DNA from: Alphaproteobacteria bacterium
GTDB lineage: Bacteria; Pseudomonadota; Alphaproteobacteria; CAAHEQ01; UBA3637
Direction of reading: 5' to 3'
Length of the DNA: 32,977 nt
Assembly: GCA_017650375.1 (NCBI GenBank)
Contig: JAGCFA010000060.1
Span: 1-32,977 of the forward strand
Position numbers and translations under genes: made by a program. This document shows positions 1,233 through 18,052 of the stretch, in pieces. Every line of letters begins with the position of its first letter. The first letter of the stretch is position 1. The notes beneath the pieces are model-generated. The model worked only from the letters and a program-made list of their open reading frames with translations, had not been told where the DNA came from and did not search any database.

Positions 1233-1262
1233 AGTGGGAATTTTTCCATAAAGGAGGATTAT

Positions 1263-4200
1263 ATGAGCAAAAAACATTCTGAATCCGGTCGTAGCTTATT
1301 AGAAATTGTCGTTGTTTTAGGCATCGTTGCTTTATTGATGATTATCACTTCATTGGGATATAGTTTCATTTCATTAAAGTATCGTGAAAAAGAATCTGTC
1401 AAGCAGGTATCCGAATTGGCGGTGCGTTATAAATTGAATCCCGTTAAACCAAAAGAAGGTAAAAAAAGAATCCCCCTTAAAACAATCTATCCGGAAGCTG
1501 TTTTAACCGAAGCTAGTGAAGCTTTAGTAACACCAGATACAACATCAACACGCGTTTATTTGCAACCATATGAGGAAACATCTGCTTTCAGTATCGTTGT
1601 CAATCAAACTTTACCAGGGACATGTGAAGAGTTATTGGAAAGCGGCGAATACGATATGGTCGTGTTTAAAGAAGGAGTATCCATTGAAGAGGCTTTAACT
1701 ACCCAAGGCGAAACAGAAAAAAACGCTTTCAGTCGGGATTATTTAATGAGCCCTGAAGGCAAGGAATTAATTCAAAAAATATGTGCACAAGAAAAAGAAA
1801 CAAAAAAAGTTACCGGTTTAGGATTGGTCTTTGACAAGCGCTGTCCTGGATTAGGAAAGAGCTTTTGGTACAGAGGTCAATGTTGGAACTGCCCCATTAC
1901 ACAGGTACAAGATATTCATGGTGCTTGTTGTTCTTCCTTGAATGAATGTGGTGTCTGCCGTTGTCCTAATGGTGCTTGTAAAACAGAAACAAAAACTTGT
2001 GTGGAATGTGTTAACGATGCTAATTGTGCCAATAATTCAAAAGGACATAGGTGTGACACAACAACAAACAAATGTGTTTCCTGTCTTGCAGATAGCGATT
2101 GTGCGGAAGGATCTTATTGTACATCCGGTCATACCTGCGTCCAATGTGATACGTTGGACGAAAAAAAACATCTGCTTTGGAATTCCAAAACTGATGAATG
2201 TGAATGTGCTAAACCTTTGTTAGCTCTTGGGCAAGACTGTGAAGAGGAGACAAATTGTTGTGGCACGGGTTTAACATGCCATGAGGGTATTTGTAATGAA
2301 TGTTGGGAACACAAAGGCCCACAACCAAAAGTAGGCGCATGTAATAGTGCTGATTTCCCTATTTGTAAACCAACTGGAAATGGTGCAAATAAATGTGAAA
2401 GATGCCCTCAAACACCAACCGCTATTGGTGACGAATGCTACGAAGTATGTGGAGGTTGTTCTGCAGCTGTCAATTTGACTTGCGATACAACACGAAATCA
2501 ATGTGTTTGCAGTGACAATTTACATTGGAATGGTGTACGTTGCGTCGAATGTACTGAAAATAGCCATTGCCCCACTGGAACAACTTGTAGTGTCACTGGT
2601 TCCTGTGAAGGCTGTACAGCTAATTCTTCCTGCCCCAGTTGCCAGGCTTTAGATCCGACAAAGCCGTATTGGGATGGAACAAAGTGTATCGAATGTTTCG
2701 CAAATGGACCAGAAGGCGGATGTGTCGATCCAACAAAACCACGTTGTAATTTGACAACAAATGTTTGCGAACCTTGTCCGACTACTGCTCCAAATTGGGA
2801 TGGAACAAAGTGTGTTGAATGCGTCAACAACAGTCATTGTCCTGTAGGAAAAACATGTGATATAACAAATTCTTGCAAAGACTGCGCAATCAATTCTTCC
2901 TGCCCCAGTTGTCTGGCTTTAGATCCGACAAAGCCGTATTGGGATGGAACAAAGTGTATCGAATGTTTCGCAAATGGACCAGAAGGCGGATGTGTCGATC
3001 CAACAAAGCCACGTTGTAATTTGACAACAAATGTTTGTGAACCTTGTCCGACTACTGCTCCAAATTGGGATGGAACAAAGTGTGTTGAATGTTCAGAACC
3101 AAGCCATTGCCCTGCGGGTAAAACTTGTAATAGTTCAAATTCTTGTGAAGATTGCGCAATCAATTCTTCCTGCCCCAGTTGTCTGGCCCTGGATCCTGAA
3201 AAACCATATTGGGATGGAACCCAATGTATTGGGTGTTCTGCAAATGGACCAGCCGGTGGTTGTACTGAAGAAAAACCTGTATGTAATAAAGAGACAAAAG
3301 TTTGTGAACCTTGTCCAGCAGAAACACCTAACTGGAACGGATTGCGGTGTTTGGAATGTTTTTCTCACAGTCATTGTGCTGATCGAACAGATGGGCGCGT
3401 AACTTGTGATATCAACAGTCATATGTGTATTGAATGTCCGGATAATGCTTCCGGTGTACCGACAGATCAACGTATTGGTTTAACGGCATGTTATTGTCGT
3501 CCTGGTTATGTCGTCAACAGCATCGGTACAAAATGTGTTGAAAATTGCTTTTCCGATGTTGACTGCGCAGGCCGGACGGATGGAAGCACCTCATGCGATC
3601 TACAAACACATCGTTGTGTAAGCTGTCCAGAAGGATACTTCATGGAAAATGGTTCATGTAAGACCTGTGGAACAGACAGAAATTGCGTTTGTAACCGTTA
3701 TGGTTTATCCCCTTGGACAGCCGGAGCTAGTTGTGGAAAAGGGAAAAGCTTATATGTCACATTCGAAGGATATTTAATCTTGGATAAAGATGTAACAGAA
3801 ATCGGTCAAGGTCAAGGCTGTCGCACGGGAACATTGACTTTGACTTCTGAAGAAACAGGGGAAGTTTTCACAATTCCCGCGAAAGGGTATTCCGATGCAT
3901 ATAAACCATTCAAAGTTAACTTGAAAAAAGGTGTCTATAAAGCCGTCCTTCAGACAAATCATGCAAAAGGGATGGAATTTTGTTATCCATCTTATGATTC
4001 CAATTTGGGATATGCAGCAATGTGTACAGGAAAATACTATAAGGTCTGCCCTAAAGGAACTTTCTTAGATACCGGATCAAATATGTGTGTTAATTGCTTA
4101 AGTGACTATGGCACTGGAGAAGAAGGAGCTTGTGCTAATTTATCAAAACCATGGTGCAATCCGTCCAGCAATTCTTGCGAAGCTTGCTCGGCCAATAAAC

Positions 4201-5006
4201 CTTATTGGAACACAGCACGACGTGAATGCGTGGAATGTATGTCAGATGCTCATTGCGCTAATCGGACAGACGGAAAAACCATTTGCGATACATCTACAAA
4301 CCTTTGTTTCCCCAAAAATAATCCATATCATCTGGGGCAAACGATTTTTGAATCTGAAACACCAAACACATATTATGTGAACCTCTATCCAGGAATCTAT
4401 GACATAGTCATTGTTGGTGCCGGTGGTGGAAACCGTGGTATTCGTGAAAAGCATAATCATAACTCTGGTACGGGTGCTAGCGGTGGTTCTGGGGCTGGTT
4501 TTGTCGGAACAATTACTGTTACTAAAGCTAAAAATAACGTAGCCGTTCATGTTGGAAAAGGTGGAAAATATAAGTTCACTGACCAGTGTTGCGTTGGTGA
4601 AAAAGCAACAGATGGAGAAGCTTCAAGCATTTCTGGAATTATTTCTTGTCCTGGTGGAATGGCAGGAAGTGTTCAGAGCGACTATAATCAAGCTACTGCT
4701 GGTACGGGCGGATCTGCATGTACTATTTCAGGCAAGGTTGTTTCAAGCTTAATAAAAAAAGCAGGATCAACAGGTCATACTGGTTCTGCTAAGAAATCAG
4801 GTAATCTGACGGCTGTTCCTGGAACGACATCCGTTGTCAGCAACTTTGTTCCCAATAACAATGGGGGTACTCCAGGATTCTGTGCCGGATGGTGGATGAA
4901 TGGGATGTATGAAGCGGGTCAACACAGTTGTGGTAGTGGTTTAACGAATACTTCCATGACAGATAGTCCTTCTGGATACGTTAAGATTATCTATAAAGGT
5001 AATTAG
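1263..5006 (+). CDS. giant prepilin-like, Cys-rich repeat surface protein with Gly-rich C-terminus
   Basis: A 1247-residue protein. The start at 1263 is chosen because AAAGGAGG precedes it by a few bases; the longer frame from 1137 overlaps the HNH gene. Residues 1-30 are a type IV prepilin leader: a short basic stretch, then ESG|RSLLEIVVVLGIVALL, with Gly at -1, Glu at +5 and a hydrophobic helix, but Arg instead of Phe at +1. Residues about 30-190 resemble a pseudopilin-like body. Residues about 195-825 are very Cys-rich, EGF-like or keratin-like repeats built on W(D/N)GT(K/R)C(I/V)EC and (R)TDGxxxCD motifs, including 270-bp tandem repeats. Residues about 828-910 form a beta-rich spacer, followed by more Cys modules. 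Residues from about 1020 are a Gly-rich domain (VGAGGG, GTGASGGSGAG, HVGKGGKY) like those of adhesin or tail-tip proteins. An envelope-anchored adhesin or minor-pilin tip is likely; the function is inferred. Confidence 0.8.
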   Translation: MSKKHSESGRSLLEIVVVLGIVALLMIITSLGYSFISLKYREKESVKQVSELAVRYKLNPVKPKEGKKRIPLKTIYPEAVLTEASEALVTPDTTSTRVYLQPYEETSAFSIVVNQTLPGTCEELLESGEYDMVVFKEGVSIEEALTTQGETEKNAFSRDYLMSPEGKELIQKICAQEKETKKVTGLGLVFDKRCPGLGKSFWYRGQCWNCPITQVQDIHGACCSSLNECGVCRCPNGACKTETKTCVECVNDANCANNSKGHRCDTTTNKCVSCLADSDCAEGSYCTSGHTCVQCDTLDEKKHLLWNSKTDECECAKPLLALGQDCEEETNCCGTGLTCHEGICNECWEHKGPQPKVGACNSADFPICKPTGNGANKCERCPQTPTAIGDECYEVCGGCSAAVNLTCDTTRNQCVCSDNLHWNGVRCVECTENSHCPTGTTCSVTGSCEGCTANSSCPSCQALDPTKPYWDGTKCIECFANGPEGGCVDPTKPRCNLTTNVCEPCPTTAPNWDGTKCVECVNNSHCPVGKTCDITNSCKDCAINSSCPSCLALDPTKPYWDGTKCIECFANGPEGGCVDPTKPRCNLTTNVCEPCPTTAPNWDGTKCVECSEPSHCPAGKTCNSSNSCEDCAINSSCPSCLALDPEKPYWDGTQCIGCSANGPAGGCTEEKPVCNKETKVCEPCPAETPNWNGLRCLECFSHSHCADRTDGRVTCDINSHMCIECPDNASGVPTDQRIGLTACYCRPGYVVNSIGTKCVENCFSDVDCAGRTDGSTSCDLQTHRCVSCPEGYFMENGSCKTCGTDRNCVCNRYGLSPWTAGASCGKGKSLYVTFEGYLILDKDVTEIGQGQGCRTGTLTLTSEETGEVFTIPAKGYSDAYKPFKVNLKKGVYKAVLQTNHAKGMEFCYPSYDSNLGYAAMCTGKYYKVCPKGTFLDTGSNMCVNCLSDYGTGEEGACANLSKPWCNPSSNSCEACSANKPYWNTARRECVECMSDAHCANRTDGKTICDTSTNLCFPKNNPYHLGQTIFESETPNTYYVNLYPGIYDIVIVGAGGGNRGIREKHNHNSGTGASGGSGAGFVGTITVTKAKNNVAVHVGKGGKYKFTDQCCVGEKATDGEASSISGIISCPGGMAGSVQSDYNQATAGTGGSACTISGKVVSSLIKKAGSTGHTGSAKKSGNLTAVPGTTSVVSNFVPNNNGGTPGFCAGWWMNGMYEAGQHSCGSGLTNTSMTDSPSGYVKIIYKGN
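2622..3431 (+). repeat. three tandem 270-bp (90-residue) repeats inside the surface protein gene
   Basis: Copies begin at 2622, 2892 and 3162, each with AATTCTTCCTGCCCCAGTTG. Copies 1 and 2 are almost identical at the DNA level over their first 200 bases (2622-2821 and 2892-3091). The third copy is clearly related but diverged. Each 90-residue unit starts NSSCPSC and holds PYWDGTKCIEC, a CxxxTxxVCEPC segment and NWDGTKCVEC. The period is a multiple of three, so copy-number change would keep the frame. Confidence 0.9.
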
Positions 5007-13997: not shown

Positions 13998-14935
13998 AAT
14001 AACTCCTTTTTAATCTTTTGGGCAATTTCTTGAGCCGGATTTAAGCAATCTTTCGGCGGATGAGGCCATCCCCCAACCGGAACAGCATAACCTTGGCTGT
14101 ATAAGGCCTGATGAAAACGGGCGTGTTTTTCCCCTACCATTTCCTTAGGAGCAAAAATAACAACAGGTACCCCTACCCCCGCACATTCTGAACACATACT
14201 CATAGAATCCCCTGTTACAACCAACATATCTGCCATAGACAAAAGCCCAAAATAAGGATTCTCACTTTGATCGCCAAAGCAATAAAAAAACTTAGGCTCT
14301 GGAAGTTCTTTTTCCAAAAATGTCACAATTTCACTGGGTGTTCTGCGCGAAGTCGTTACCAATAAACTGGCCGGTTTTAAAGCCCGAATTGCATCAACTA
14401 ATTGTTGAGCATGTTTCAAAGTAAATGATTTATCCTTGGTGGCGCCTCCCACTAAAACACTGACACGCGGTGTGGGGTACTTCTTAAAAATTGGAGCCCA
14501 ATGTTTTTTTTCACGGGCTAATTTTTCAGGCGTCACACGATGCGGTGTTCCTAGAACTTGCATCACATTTGATGCTTTTCCAGAATAATTATCGTGGGTT
14601 GGTAAAATCAACAAATCAGCCTTTTTTTCTTCTAATTTCCCGGGGTTCATTAGTTGCACAATTTTTGTTTTTCCTCCTGATAATTTTTTGATGGCCAATG
14701 CTACAGGGAAACTGCGCCGGCCGGCACTTAAAACCACGTCAGGATAAGGGGCGGACAATCCAGCCTTTGATTCTTCTGTAATACCGATAAAGCTGGCCCC
14801 ACGCAAAAAGTTCGGCAAGCGCACCCAAGCATTATAGCGAATATCTTTGCGTTCATAGGGTTCCCCTAATGCTTCTACAATTCCAAGCAATTGATTGACA
14901 TTCCCTGCACGGTCATCTGCTAAGATCCAAATCAT
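13994..14935 (-). CDS. ELM1/DUF1022-family protein (GT-B-like)
   Basis: Belongs to the family named after plant mitochondrial fission protein ELM1, whose bacterial members are common in Alphaproteobacteria and of unknown activity. It has 313 residues with a GT-B-like layout. The start is IWILADDRAGNVNQLLGIVEAL, a family hallmark, followed by PDVVLSAGRRS, VQLMNPG, VSVLVGGATKDKSF, LLVTTSRRTPSE, and a C-terminal VTGDSMSMCSECAGVGVPVVIFAP. The DSMSM element resembles the sugar-nucleotide phosphate site of GT-B enzymes. It overlaps both neighbours by 4 bases, so it is translated with the lipoprotein and ThyX. A role in envelope sugar chemistry is a reasonable guess only. Confidence 0.85.
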   Translation of the reverse strand: MIWILADDRAGNVNQLLGIVEALGEPYERKDIRYNAWVRLPNFLRGASFIGITEESKAGLSAPYPDVVLSAGRRSFPVALAIKKLSGGKTKIVQLMNPGKLEEKKADLLILPTHDNYSGKASNVMQVLGTPHRVTPEKLAREKKHWAPIFKKYPTPRVSVLVGGATKDKSFTLKHAQQLVDAIRALKPASLLVTTSRRTPSEIVTFLEKELPEPKFFYCFGDQSENPYFGLLSMADMLVVTGDSMSMCSECAGVGVPVVIFAPKEMVGEKHARFHQALYSQGYAVPVGGWPHPPKDCLNPAQEIAQKIKKELL

Positions 14936-15318
14936 TTGATTCCTTTCACTGTTACTTCATTTGTCGCAGCTTTTTTCTTAAGTTGTTCAATCCCTTTTAA
15001 AACAATTCTATCTGATTCAATAGAGCTGATTTCTTTTGCACAAACAGACGTTTGAAAATACTGGCAAGGACGTGCAATATAAGCAACATTTCCCCCTTTA
15101 TCTTTTACAGCTTGTTCACGAACCGTTGCAGAGGGAGGAACCTCATATCCTTCCACATACACAGTTAAGGGTTCACCCTGCTTTGAAATACGATACCAAC
15201 CAGAAAGTACGTAAGGAGGCACTACCAATGTTTGAAAACGAAAATCAGCCTTTTCCAACGGATTACGATAGGTGCATCCGGATAAAAATAATATTAAAAA
15301 CAAAATCCCTTTTTTCAT
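14932..15318 (-). CDS. short lipoprotein resembling the N-terminus of an alpha/beta hydrolase
   Basis: It has 128 residues from the ATG at 15318. Residues 1-15 are a lipoprotein signal (MKKGILFLILFLSGC, lipobox L-S-G|C15). The body shows PLTVYVEGY, NVAYIARPCQYF and a Cys soon after, matching my memory of the first half of alphaproteobacterial alpha/beta-hydrolase lipoproteins (YxEGDG, NVxYLARPCQ). It ends at residue 128, before the nucleophile elbow (GxSxG) such enzymes need, and the usual EGDG is EGY. It is therefore either a truncated relic or a repurposed domain. It has no Shine-Dalgarno sequence: a TATAGT box lies 6 bases before the ATG. It overlaps the ELM1-family gene by 4 bases. Confidence 0.75.
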   Translation of the reverse strand: MKKGILFLILFLSGCTYRNPLEKADFRFQTLVVPPYVLSGWYRISKQGEPLTVYVEGYEVPPSATVREQAVKDKGGNVAYIARPCQYFQTSVCAKEISSIESDRIVLKGIEQLKKKAATNEVTVKGIK

Positions 15319-15324
15319 ATCTTC

Positions 15325-15353
15325 ACTATACCAAACGAAAGAAGAATTGACAA
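15325..15353 (-). promoter_or_regulatory. promoter of the lipoprotein-ELM1-thyX operon, probably leaderless
   Basis: Minus strand TTGTCA (15348-15353), 17 bases, TATAGT (15325-15330), then only 6 bases to the ATG at 15318. A normal start point would fall on or next to the A of ATG. The same hexamer read on the plus strand is TTGACA (15347-15352), pointing at the microprotein gene. Confidence 0.65.
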
Positions 15354-15399
15354 GTAAAAAATGAAATCCTTTTTTAAAAAAAGAAAGGGGGTGAGAAAT

Positions 15400-15471
15400 A
15401 TGGCTGGAAATAAAGATTGTGGGTGCGGTTGTGGCACCAAAAAAGGCGGTTCCAAAAAGGGAGCCAAATAA
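15400..15471 (+). CDS. 23-residue Cys-rich basic microprotein
   Basis: A tiny gene in an otherwise empty gap. Its product starts MAGNKDCGCGCGTKK and continues with alternating Gly, Ser and Lys; it has three Cys in CGCGCG and about seven Lys. It is preceded by a near-perfect ribosome-binding site (AAAGGGGGTGAG, 5 bases before ATG) and followed 5 bases later by a strong terminator hairpin, so it is a complete transcription unit by layout. A perfect TTGACA lies at 15347-15352, though no good -10 follows it. The Cys triplet suggests metal binding, or modification as a peptide precursor. No modifying enzyme or exporter is adjacent. I know no named family for it. Confidence 0.65.
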   Translation: MAGNKDCGCGCGTKKGGSKKGAK

Positions 15472-15476
15472 CTCAT

Positions 15477-15503
15477 ATGCCACCGTTTATTCGGTGGCAT
15501 TTT
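15477..15503. terminator. terminator between the microprotein gene and the convergent chpT-like gene
   Basis: Stem ATGCCACCG / CGGTGGCAT (15477-15485 and 15492-15500) with a 6-base loop, then TTT on the plus strand. The minus-strand chpT-like gene stops at 15502-15504, so the hairpin probably serves both directions. Confidence 0.8.
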
Positions 15504-16038
15504 AAATAATTTCAAGTTGAGCAGAAGTGGCTTTCAATGCCATTTTTAATTTTTTATTCTGATTTTTCAACTGTTCCATCAACCAACCCGCTTCTACGAT
15601 TTCAGGTGTCATTTCTACTTTTTTATTTTCTAATAAAGCCATAAATTCAGGACGCGCTGTAATTTCCGGACCTTTTAAAGTCATTTTATTATCCTTAAAG
15701 CTCAGTGTTCCGCCTTGAGCCAGCAAAATAATGCCTACTGCCACCAAAGAAAGATGCAAGCGATTTTCAACACTTCCTTCAAGTGTAATTTTTTGTCCCC
15801 ATGTTTTCAAGTGTTCCGTAATAATTGAAGCATTAATTTCTTTTGTTTCTGCCCCAAACAGTGCCCGATAAAAACGCAAACGCGCCATCAGCATTAAACT
15901 GTTTTGTTTAAGCATAACTGCTGCTTCCCCTGAAAAAGACGGATCAATTTCCATCAGTTCCGCTGTTGAAGCTACTGCCCCTATTCCTCCGGCCAAATCA
16001 TGGCTGATTCTGCCTGTAATCGCTTCAGTTAGTGTCAT
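15502..16038 (-). CDS. chpT: ChpT-like histidine phosphotransferase
   Basis: In Alphaproteobacteria ChpT passes phosphate from the hybrid kinase CckA to CtrA and CpdR, controlling the cell cycle. This 178-residue protein begins with the dimerisation/phosphoacceptor helix RISHDLAGGIGAVASTAELM (His13 followed by Asp-Leu, as in the ChpT HDL motif), has the conserved ARLRFYRALFGA helix, and a C-terminal half lacking ATP-binding motifs, as expected for the degenerate HATPase-like domain of ChpT. It is shorter than Caulobacter ChpT. Its ATG overlaps the sucD-like stop (ATGA), so it is translated with that gene. The coupling to a SucCD-like pair is unusual. No cckA, ctrA or cpdR is in the window. 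Confidence 0.72.
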   Translation of the reverse strand: MTLTEAITGRISHDLAGGIGAVASTAELMEIDPSFSGEAAVMLKQNSLMLMARLRFYRALFGAETKEINASIITEHLKTWGQKITLEGSVENRLHLSLVAVGIILLAQGGTLSFKDNKMTLKGPEITARPEFMALLENKKVEMTPEIVEAGWLMEQLKNQNKKLKMALKATSAQLEII

Positions 16039-16913
16039 TTCTTTTTCCTTTTATATTCTTTTAAAATTTGTTTCCCGATTTCATCTGGGGAATCAATCCA
16101 GCATGCGTTTGCTTTTTTAAACAAGGTCTTTTTTTCCTGAATAACATCCGAAAACAGAACGGACTTCATGCCTAACAACGGATGTTTATCAGAACGCGCC
16201 AATGTTTTTCCCGGAATATAAACAAACATTTTTTTAGGATGATTCTTTTGATAAAAAGAAGCTAATTCTTGTTCCAAAGTCCCATGAACTTGCCCTATCA
16301 CTAAAATAGCCTTTGTTGCTGTATCTGCATACAAGCATTCAATCACAGGAATAAAAGAGGCTCCGATCAAATGGTCTGCCCCTAATGAAACACATTGAGA
16401 GACCCCTAATCCTGCCTCGGAGAGTTGTTGTACAGCCTCAAACATTAAAGAAGAGGAACGTCCCACAATCGCAATAGAACCAGCAGAAAATAAGTGCGTC
16501 GGAATGGTTCCTGCAACAGCATGGCCAACATTTAAAATGCCAGCAGAAGACGGCCCCAATAAAGTTACACCAGCTTGATCAGCAGCCAATTTCATTTTCA
16601 AGGAATCATGCATCGGCACATGTTCTGTAGTACAAATAATTAATGGTATTTTAGCCTTAATTGCTTCTAAAACATCTGATAAGGCTTTTTGAGGTGTAGA
16701 AAAAACAACACTGACCTGTACTTTCTTTGCACGCATTGCCTTTGCAACAGAAGAATATAGCGGAATAGAGCCCAATTTTCCTGTTATTTCCTGACTGACT
16801 CCAGCCACCAAATTTGTCCCATAGCTGAGAGCCAGTTCCGTTTGATAACGCCCCATGGCAGAAGTAATTCCTTGAAAAAGAATTGGTGTTTTTTGATTTG
16901 GAAAGAAAAACAT
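16035..16913 (-). CDS. SucD-like (succinyl-CoA synthetase alpha) protein lacking the phosphohistidine
   Basis: It has 292 residues, as usual for SucD, and alignable end to end by eye: ILFQGITSAMGRYQTELALSYG near the N-terminus (CoA-binding Rossmann fold), GVTLLGPSSAGI for GVRMIGPNCPG, IAIVGRSSSLMFEA for VGIVSRSGTLTYEA, and AILVIGQVHG for AIVMIGEIGG. In the ungapped alignment the catalytic His of MGHAG is replaced by Leu (HPLLG, about residue 246) and the Glu that stabilises it is Gln (about 208). A His lies two residues earlier and could be a shifted substitute. The start at 16913 overlaps the sucC-like stop by one base (TGATG) with AAAGGAG ahead. Canonical succinyl-CoA synthesis is doubtful; a CoA-binding or sensory role is inference. 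Confidence 0.82.
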   Translation of the reverse strand: MFFFPNQKTPILFQGITSAMGRYQTELALSYGTNLVAGVSQEITGKLGSIPLYSSVAKAMRAKKVQVSVVFSTPQKALSDVLEAIKAKIPLIICTTEHVPMHDSLKMKLAADQAGVTLLGPSSAGILNVGHAVAGTIPTHLFSAGSIAIVGRSSSLMFEAVQQLSEAGLGVSQCVSLGADHLIGASFIPVIECLYADTATKAILVIGQVHGTLEQELASFYQKNHPKKMFVYIPGKTLARSDKHPLLGMKSVLFSDVIQEKKTLFKKANACWIDSPDEIGKQILKEYKRKKK

Positions 16914-18052
16914 CAAAGAACTCCTTTCACCTGTTTAACAATTTCAGATGTTGCATCCGAAATTTTATTCATAACAATAAAAGGAGAAATAGAGCGCGTC
17001 AACAAACGGACTCCCTCTGTCGAATCAAGACCCGCCATTCGTACAACAACCGGAATACCCGTTGCAATTTCAGGAGAAGCAGCTAAAGCACCTTCTGCCA
17101 CGGTCTTACAACTGGTTAATCCCCCAAAAATATTGACCAATATACCATCAACATTTGGTTCAGCCAAAGCCAACTTCATCGCTTTTGTAATAGCGTTCGC
17201 TGTGGGTTCTGTCCCTACATCCAACAGACAAGCAACTTGTCCCCCTTTTTGATGAATCAAATCAATCGTTGCCCAACCAAAACCTATACCATTGACCAGA
17301 CAAGCAATGTTACCACACATTTTTGTATACCTGAATGCATTTTTTTTAGCCAAAGCTTCTCTTTCATGGCCCCACTTTATTTCCTGACGCTTAACAATTT
17401 CCGGAAAGCGAAACAATGAATCAGGATCAAATACCAAACGCCCATCCACAACAACCAAGGTCTTATCATTTTGGACAATCGGGTTCAATTCAACAGCCAC
17501 AGCCCCGTAATGAATGAAAAGGCGATATGCTTTTTCTAGAACACTCTCCAAAAGTCGACCAATATGGCGATCATTGATTTTCATACATTTTAAAATTTCT
17601 TTTTTAATAGCAGATGTCAATTTTAATTCGGTCAAAAAGAAGGTGTTTTCCCCTTTATCAGAAACAATGGTCAATGTATAGGTTTGACGGTCAAAATCCA
17701 CCCTAAAAACAAAACGACATAAAGCTTTTTTTTGTACTGCTTGTTCAATATAGACACGCTGAATTGTGGCCGGCACATCCGCAGGAAAACCTTTAACATG
17801 CATTCCTAGAATCTGTTCAGTTAAAGCTAAAACTTCTTCTGAATTTTCAGCTAATCTTTTTTCCAACAACAAATTACGTTTTTTATCCGGTGTATATCCT
17901 AATAATACCTGAGGCTTGACCCAAAAAGGTCCTGACGTCATCTGACAAGCGATATTTTTTGCTTCTTCAGGCGTATAGGCAACACCCCCTAATAAAACGG
18001 GCAAGCCTGCTGTCTTAAAAATCTCTTTAACGTAATATTCATGCAGTTCCAT
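16913..18052 (-). CDS. SucC-like (succinyl-CoA synthetase beta) protein, divergent
   Basis: It has 379 residues, close to the usual length of about 390. The start MELHEYYVKEIFKTAGLPV and the C-terminal CoA-ligase half (GNIACLVNGIGFGWATIDLI, LLDVGTEPTANAITKA, VNIFGGLTSCKTVAEG, PVVVRMAG) are clearly SucC. The ATP-grasp half is poorly conserved: the usual VKxQVxxGGRGKAGG is VKPQVLLGYTPDKK, so the Gly-rich nucleotide loop is missing, while the metal-site region ELNPIV and VVDGRLVFD remains. The usual DVGGGA is DVGTEP. With the matching loss in its SucD-like partner, the whole complex seems to have drifted from nucleotide-dependent thioester chemistry. It lies 13 bases after the diadenylate cyclase gene. 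Confidence 0.82.
   Translation of the reverse strand: MELHEYYVKEIFKTAGLPVLLGGVAYTPEEAKNIACQMTSGPFWVKPQVLLGYTPDKKRNLLLEKRLAENSEEVLALTEQILGMHVKGFPADVPATIQRVYIEQAVQKKALCRFVFRVDFDRQTYTLTIVSDKGENTFFLTELKLTSAIKKEILKCMKINDRHIGRLLESVLEKAYRLFIHYGAVAVELNPIVQNDKTLVVVDGRLVFDPDSLFRFPEIVKRQEIKWGHEREALAKKNAFRYTKMCGNIACLVNGIGFGWATIDLIHQKGGQVACLLDVGTEPTANAITKAMKLALAEPNVDGILVNIFGGLTSCKTVAEGALAASPEIATGIPVVVRMAGLDSTEGVRLLTRSISPFIVMNKISDATSEIVKQVKGVL

Follow-up and report, generated by a model that had tools for sequence, protein, structure and literature searches.

The stretch of DNA analysed here, referred to as the window, comprises 32,977 nucleotides of an alphaproteobacterial genome (assembly GCA_017650375.1, contig JAGCFA010000060.1). 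Positions 15400-15471 of its plus strand encode a 23-residue product, with the ORF coordinates exactly as noted in a first-pass annotation made from the letters alone. This ORF is almost certainly a real micropeptide gene and not a chance frame. The gene is vertically kept, its amino acids are under selection, and it carries its own ribosome-binding site and terminator, with a recognisable promoter in most relatives. The features of the locus are as follows.

15400..15471, plus strand: micropeptide gene, MAGNKDCGCGCGTKKGGSKKGAK plus stop (ORF read directly; orthologues in relatives)
15424..15441, plus strand: codons for the conserved core C-G-C-G-T-K (alignment with orthologues)
15384..15395, plus strand: Shine-Dalgarno sequence AAAGGGGGTGAG (computed duplex with the 16S tail)
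15477..15500, plus strand: terminator hairpin with 9-bp stem, 6-nt loop and weak U-tract (computed folding)
15347..15354, plus strand: TTGACAAG, putative -35 box of the microgene, overlapping the opposite-strand -35 box of the divergent gene (28 of 30 genomes)
15370..15375, plus strand: -10 box position at 17-nt spacing, TTTTTT in the window, a poor match (hexamer comparison)
15325..15353, minus strand: promoter of the divergent lipoprotein gene, TTGTCA - 17 nt - TATAGT (promoter scan and relatives)
14932..15321, minus strand: divergent lipoprotein gene, 129 aa, a neighbour and at most a putative partner (truncated relative of an alpha/beta-hydrolase-like lipoprotein of approx. 250-270 aa)

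Organization of the locus

Both flanking operons lie on the minus strand, hence the plus-strand microgene points away from one of them (divergent) and towards the other (convergent). The gap had been described as lying between divergent/convergent operons, which holds for the microgene with respect to its flanks, but not for the operons themselves, which share one strand. Pfam and NCBIfam profile searches with the micropeptide gave no family in either collection, neither a metallothionein nor another named Cys-rich model, such searches being insensitive at 23 residues, and an Rfam scan of the window returned two tRNAs only, with no RNA family at the microgene. No opposite-strand gene overlaps the ORF, save for an unlikely GTG extension of the lipoprotein frame, and an antisense role was rejected. 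An upstream in-frame ATG at 15361 was also discarded as start, being inside the putative promoter spacer and absent in G004 and other genomes.

Elsewhere in the window, positions approx. 1257-5006 (plus strand) encode a very large Cys-rich repeat protein with a prepilin-like N-terminus (SGRSLLEIVVVLGIVALL), a similar start being present in locus L104, and two adjacent ORFs at 16035-18052 (minus strand) carry CoA-ligase domains resembling succinyl-CoA ligase subunits, perhaps diverged.

Translation and termination signals

Directly upstream of the micropeptide ATG stands GGGGGTGAG, and the Shine-Dalgarno AAAGGGGGTGAG ends 4 nt before the start codon. Its duplex with the 16S tail, computed with a tail sequence that we assumed, reaches -21.3 kcal/mol, as compared with -0.5 to -12.3 for the other 17 window gene starts that were scored; a fraction of 0.0003 of 3000 random positions attains this value. 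The ribosome-binding site, which had been called near-perfect, is the strongest among the starts scored. The hairpin at 15477-15500 begins 5 nt past the stop and folds at -16.1 kcal/mol, shuffled sequences averaging -4.2 (z = -5.8). A terminator directly after the stop had also been proposed, and the 9-bp stem and its position agree with this, but the U-tract behind it is weak (TTTAAATAATTT) and a standard terminator scan of the window did not list this hairpin. Only two of the 495 ATG ORFs of 10-50 codons in the window combine a Shine-Dalgarno value of -9 or lower with a terminator-like hairpin within 30 nt, namely the microgene and an ORF at 4905, the latter being the in-frame tail of a large ORF.

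The same signals accompany the gene in its relatives. All 30 micropeptide copies have a Shine-Dalgarno at least as strong as -11.9 kcal/mol, and each of them is followed, 0-33 nt past the stop, by a hairpin with a T-rich tail (those of G002, G003, G006, G008, G009 and G040 counted through a loosened fit), the terminators varying in both sequence and distance. In four genomes (G003, G005, G006 and G009; loci L003, L004, L008 and L009) a short 5' hairpin, read by eye, is found just upstream of the Shine-Dalgarno, and its stem pairs co-vary between genomes (GCCAA/TTGGC vs GACAC/GTGTC); it is possibly an mRNA stabiliser.

Promoter region and neighbouring genes

Of 30 genomes, 28 have the putative -35 box TTGACAAG within 140 nt upstream of the gene; its distance from the ATG is 52-85 nt in 27 of these and 116 nt in G010. 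On the microgene strand the hexamer at 17 nt begins with TA in 21 of 29 genomes, the window being among the eight that fail. Read on the opposite strand, the same bases give TTGTCA, and of the 29 genomes that have TTGACA, 27 show TAnnnT at a spacing of 17 nt. The putative -35 boxes of the two divergent promoters overlap on the same bases (TTGACA / TTGTCA; window 15325-15354), as they do in most relatives. TTGACAAG is absent only in G002 and G026, both with the microgene clearly parted from the lipoprotein gene, which is consistent with two divergent promoters having one -35 box in common. Other ORFs, spanning about 1.2 kb, lie between the two genes in G002, while in G026 the microgene, with Shine-Dalgarno and terminator retained, sits away from the lipoprotein gene, flanked by what we take to be an anaerobic ribonucleotide reductase gene and an outer-membrane-protein-like gene. 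This shared -35 geometry differs from known bacterial bidirectional promoters, which in the excerpted text of PMC10268837 rest mostly on -10 symmetry.

Concerning the lipoprotein itself, it is cut to about 129 aa in the window's genus and measures about 250-270 aa, with weak alpha/beta-hydrolase matches, in other genera; in-frame stops are found in copies or paralogues of G007, G008, G012, G017, G019 and G024 (locus L019 was also noted). Divergence from this gene is the usual arrangement of the microgene among relatives, but the peptide is kept in G026 without this adjacency, which makes the neighbour dispensable. The loci read contain no constant neighbouring enzyme apart from the lipoprotein/ELM1 pair, itself separable.

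The neighbourhood bears on two further readings. The first-pass annotation had suggested a peptide precursor, and a RiPP-like precursor in the manner of MccA of microcin C, or a secreted peptide with a signal sequence, has a precedent in the 7-aa MccA, whose short gene, strong Shine-Dalgarno and closely following terminator are described in excerpts of PMC6495379. Such a precursor is nevertheless improbable here and the suggestion is unsupported, as neither MccB-like, other modifying nor export genes, transporters included, were seen beside the microgene in the loci read, nor was a signal sequence; furthermore, MccA precursors end in Asn and are not conserved in sequence, whereas the micropeptides end in Lys or, once, Cys and are conserved. 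A leader or attenuator peptide, whose translation would sense cysteine, or metal in the manner of CutF, and control expression in cis, would explain a short Cys-containing ORF with a terminator immediately behind it, and copper sensing by the nascent CutF peptide, as partially documented, gives it a precedent. We regard it as very improbable, since there is nothing to control: the next gene in the window is convergent and no co-directional gene follows the terminator there, the downstream neighbours vary among genera, and the terminators differ in sequence and in distance (0-33 nt). Leader-peptide, RiPP-precursor and antisense readings all fit the neighbourhood poorly.

Distribution in the genus and the order

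Of 43 genomes searched in the order, 30, belonging to 8 of its 13 genera, carry the micropeptide gene, 28 copies being recognised by exact motif pattern and the remaining two being those of G008 and G040. The codon-degenerate CGCGTKK pattern gave a single match in each of 28 of the 43 genomes, and the reversed control pattern gave none in 43. A tblastn search of 43 genomes of the family with the 23-mer matched nine, all of one genus (9 of its 11 genomes, the window's own included), and missed every copy outside it; the impression of a genus-restricted gene that this gives is false, as neighbour-based and codon-degenerate searches found other genera. A nine-row profile search matched neither G007 nor G008, though G008 carries a syntenic copy, MILYADGCGCGSKGGKKGSAK, at the same place as the genus copies. 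G007 has no copy, its genome being 59% complete and the syntenic lipoprotein gene missing.

Products of the window's genus range from 17 to 27 residues, their lengths differing by whole codons, with C9-G10-C11-G12 and K14 invariant across ten rows. In other genera the whole gene has 10-13 codons, typically MPGCGCGTKK(K), with AAAGGAGG upstream and a terminator hairpin downstream. The length of 23 aa, set against 10-13 aa in most relatives outside the genus, does not define the family, of which the window micropeptide is an extended form. The family-wide invariant core is C-G-C-G-(T/S)-K; its two Cys are conserved, while a third is present only in part of the window's genus and in G015.

Fetching the ELM1 neighbour from other genomes of the order (30 of 32 genomes matched, 30 loci) revealed a 10-12-codon ORF in the divergent position, usually MPGCGCGTKKK or MPGCGCGTKK. 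The micropeptide is present in 17 of these 30 loci and in 9 of 10 lipoprotein-fetched loci, as scored with regular expressions that again required the motif. In 13 of the 43 genomes the gene is absent or too diverged to detect, hence its function is dispensable there; all searched genomes of genera g2, g6, g8, g10 and g11 and the single genomes G007, G024 and G034 have no copy. In g2, g6 and g8 the lipoprotein gene stands behind co-directional genes, which leaves no divergent space. A relaxed pattern (2 mismatches) applied to 15 genomes matched in 6, only the match of G040 being genuine (MPGCGCGSKGTKK, with Shine-Dalgarno and terminator); the five others lie in different genomic contexts and were rejected as copies. 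A Shine-Dalgarno-anchored pattern returned only G025 and G040, both already counted.

Beyond the order, the pattern GGNTGYGGNTGYGGNACNAARAAR was searched class-wide and matched 3 of 385 genomes, all inside the order (to which 5 of the 385 belong), and none of the 380 outside it. Across 84,980 species, M-x-GCGCG-(T/S-like)-KK occurs in 19 stretches, 18 of them from Alphaproteobacteria, at least several of these 18 records being identical in sequence to order loci already collected. The nineteenth, from Desulfotignum, was rejected as a chance near-motif match, as it overlaps a same-strand 1087-codon frame and has no Shine-Dalgarno. The stated sources of the matching Alphaproteobacteria are sheep, yak and roe deer, together with rabbit by isolate name ('Lapin'); the family is one kept by an order of animal-gut bacteria. 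A tblastn search of phages and plasmids with the micropeptide gave no match. On a viral contig (L147:4947-5135), a 62-aa ORF starts with MMGCGCGSKK and continues with two CPxC pairs in a zinc-ribbon-like manner; it is apparently no relative. The strings CGCGTKK and MPGCGCG have no full-text match in the open-licence papers searched, sequence strings being rare in main text. Metagenomic small-protein catalogues include GMSC and the Sberro families; according to an excerpt of PMC11364881, GMSC keeps ORFs from 30 nt (9-99 aa), so unannotated micropeptide copies may sit there.

Selection on the coding frame

Among 13 short-form genomes, third codon positions are variable in 8 of 10 cases and first and second positions in 0 of 20 (Fisher p = 8e-6), the absence of first- and second-position changes being partly built in since the pattern that collected these genomes demanded seven of the ten codons. 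All differences in the ten shared codons are synonymous (264 pairwise codon differences), and the 42 non-synonymous pairwise differences all fall at the 11th codon, Lys vs stop. It should be noted that the same genomes were also reached via neighbours, with no pattern at that fetch step, and that motif selection accounts neither for the freely varying third positions nor for the constant location next to the same neighbours. Frame and amino acids are conserved in relatives and synonymous change is in excess, as expected of a protein-coding gene. The complete small expression unit originally proposed is strongly supported by the orthologues, their in-frame indels, the synonymous-only change of the short forms and the conserved ribosome-binding sites and terminators; a search of the orthologues for frame-disrupting substitutions left it standing.

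These data also bear on the RNA as the product, with an incidental ORF. The window transcript does fold better than its shuffles (z = -2.95), the terminator being the main contributor, but third positions vary freely over fixed first and second ones (partly an effect of motif selection, as mentioned), lengths differ by whole codons and the Shine-Dalgarno is kept in 30 of 30 copies, which makes an RNA product extremely improbable.

Proposed mode of action

The only constant chemistry of the micropeptide is C-G-C-G-(T/S)-K plus lysines. Since its two C-x-C cysteines are kept in every copy, the metal binding suggested in the first-pass annotation appears plausible. No hydrophobic or membrane segment and no signal peptide is visible by eye in any product. 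The best mechanism, which we put forward tentatively and with slightly less than even confidence, is that of a cytosolic, highly translated CGC dithiol peptide that would bind a soft metal or buffer redox. A housekeeping-type promoter, with a -35 box overlapping the one that serves the divergent gene, would drive transcription, and the exceptionally strong Shine-Dalgarno together with the very short frame would give a high translation rate. The product would remain in the cytosol and act through its invariant Cys-Gly-Cys-Gly as a flexible dithiol, either coordinating a soft metal ion (Zn, Cu(I) or Fe/Fe-S) or cycling as a small dithiol/disulfide, whereas the lysine tail may confer solubility, lower the thiol pKa, or dock to nucleic acid or an acidic partner.

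We favour this metal/redox peptide in view of the absence of a constant neighbour enzyme, the redox precedent of the CGC tripeptide, for which a potential of -167 mV and a degree of disulfide-isomerase activity are reported (cited in the accessible part of PMC5238392), and the motif C-Xn-C-X-C, by which A-type carriers are believed to bind Fe-S clusters (PMC7144353, in extract). Very short frames can be translated repeatedly without ribosome release, as excerpts of PMC6495379 describe, which would suit bulk peptide production. Counting against the mechanism, a lone two-Cys 10-mer would bind metal weakly unless as an oligomer or with a partner, the loci read show no metal- or redox-related gene as a regular neighbour, 13 of 43 genomes do without a recognisable copy, and the -10 box of the window itself is poor. 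A narrower version, which we consider unlikely, sees the free-standing 10-11-codon gene (MPGCGCGTKK/K) as encoding an unmodified cytosolic dithiol made in bulk, either a ribosomal counterpart of glutathione or a minimal Fe-S/metal shuttle; it takes in the extreme Shine-Dalgarno, possibly repeated translation, and genome-reduced gut Alphaproteobacteria without A-type Fe-S carrier.

The main rival would be a protein-binding microprotein, whose Cys-Gly-Cys-Gly-Thr-Lys may dock on one enzyme or on the ribosome and modulate this target, the cysteines being structural or sharing a metal. Strict conservation over only six to eight residues, with free codon choice, is what a docking motif leads one to expect, and each of the 28 exact-pattern genomes has a single copy; as there is no candidate partner, and the usual neighbour (lipoprotein/ELM1) is no longer adjacent in G026 with the peptide kept, we hold it to be rather unlikely.

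A-type carriers have a CGCG-x-S-F ending, and the micropeptide could be a partial stand-in for them, displaying Cys-Gly-Cys-Gly as a free fragment in an order that has no PF01521 protein. A search that was positive in 9 of 14 controls, Caulobacter included, detected this family in none of 40 genomes from the order, and C-Xn-C-X-C is the A-type motif in the extract of PMC7144353. Against this, the 12 peptide-free genomes among the 40 also lack PF01521, leaving no complementary pattern and making the absence a lead and no more, and anaerobes may simply not need A-type carriers. Such replacement hence seems very doubtful.

As regards significance, the amino acids of the micropeptide are clearly under selection in several genera, and neither a leader nor the precursor of a modified peptide is an obvious reading of it; to our knowledge, few free-standing bacterial genes with ten sense codons are known. 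Should the peptide itself be the active product, it would demonstrate that cells can retain a dithiol of ten residues as a component, and that a class of genes escapes notice through length cut-offs and the statistics of local alignment.

Comparison with known systems

One likeness in gene architecture is MccA (7 codons), also a very short gene that pairs a strong Shine-Dalgarno with a terminator directly behind the ORF; in vitro, about 71, 30 and 6 rounds without ribosome release are given for 7, 11 and 15 codons in the excerpted text of PMC6495379. The micropeptide differs from MccA in having no C-terminal Asn, in its conserved sequence and in being vertically kept across genera, and no mccB-type enzyme was recognised on reading the ORFs around the microgene.

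The A-type carriers IscA/ErpA/SufA (PF01521) share the Cys-x-Cys, which in them lies within a Cys-Gly-Cys-Gly stretch. They differ in size, with a domain of about 110 positions against the 10-27 aa of the micropeptide, and in their three-cysteine motif C-Xn-C-X-C, the micropeptide core having two conserved Cys; neither the micropeptide nor any of 40 genomes of the order matches PF01521.

CutF is a nascent exported protein that exerts translational control of other genes. The CutF-type copper-sensing ORFs, as partially described, are likewise small and Cys-containing and come from the same class, Alphaproteobacteria, but the micropeptide shows no signal peptide by eye, and in the window its gene is not followed by a co-directional one.

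Finally, the CGC dithiol peptides of Woycechowsky and Raines (as cited in the accessible part of PMC5238392) present the same Cys-Gly-Cys dithiol in a very short peptide. These are synthetic, whereas the micropeptide is gene-encoded and continues after CGC with Gly-Thr/Ser-Lys.
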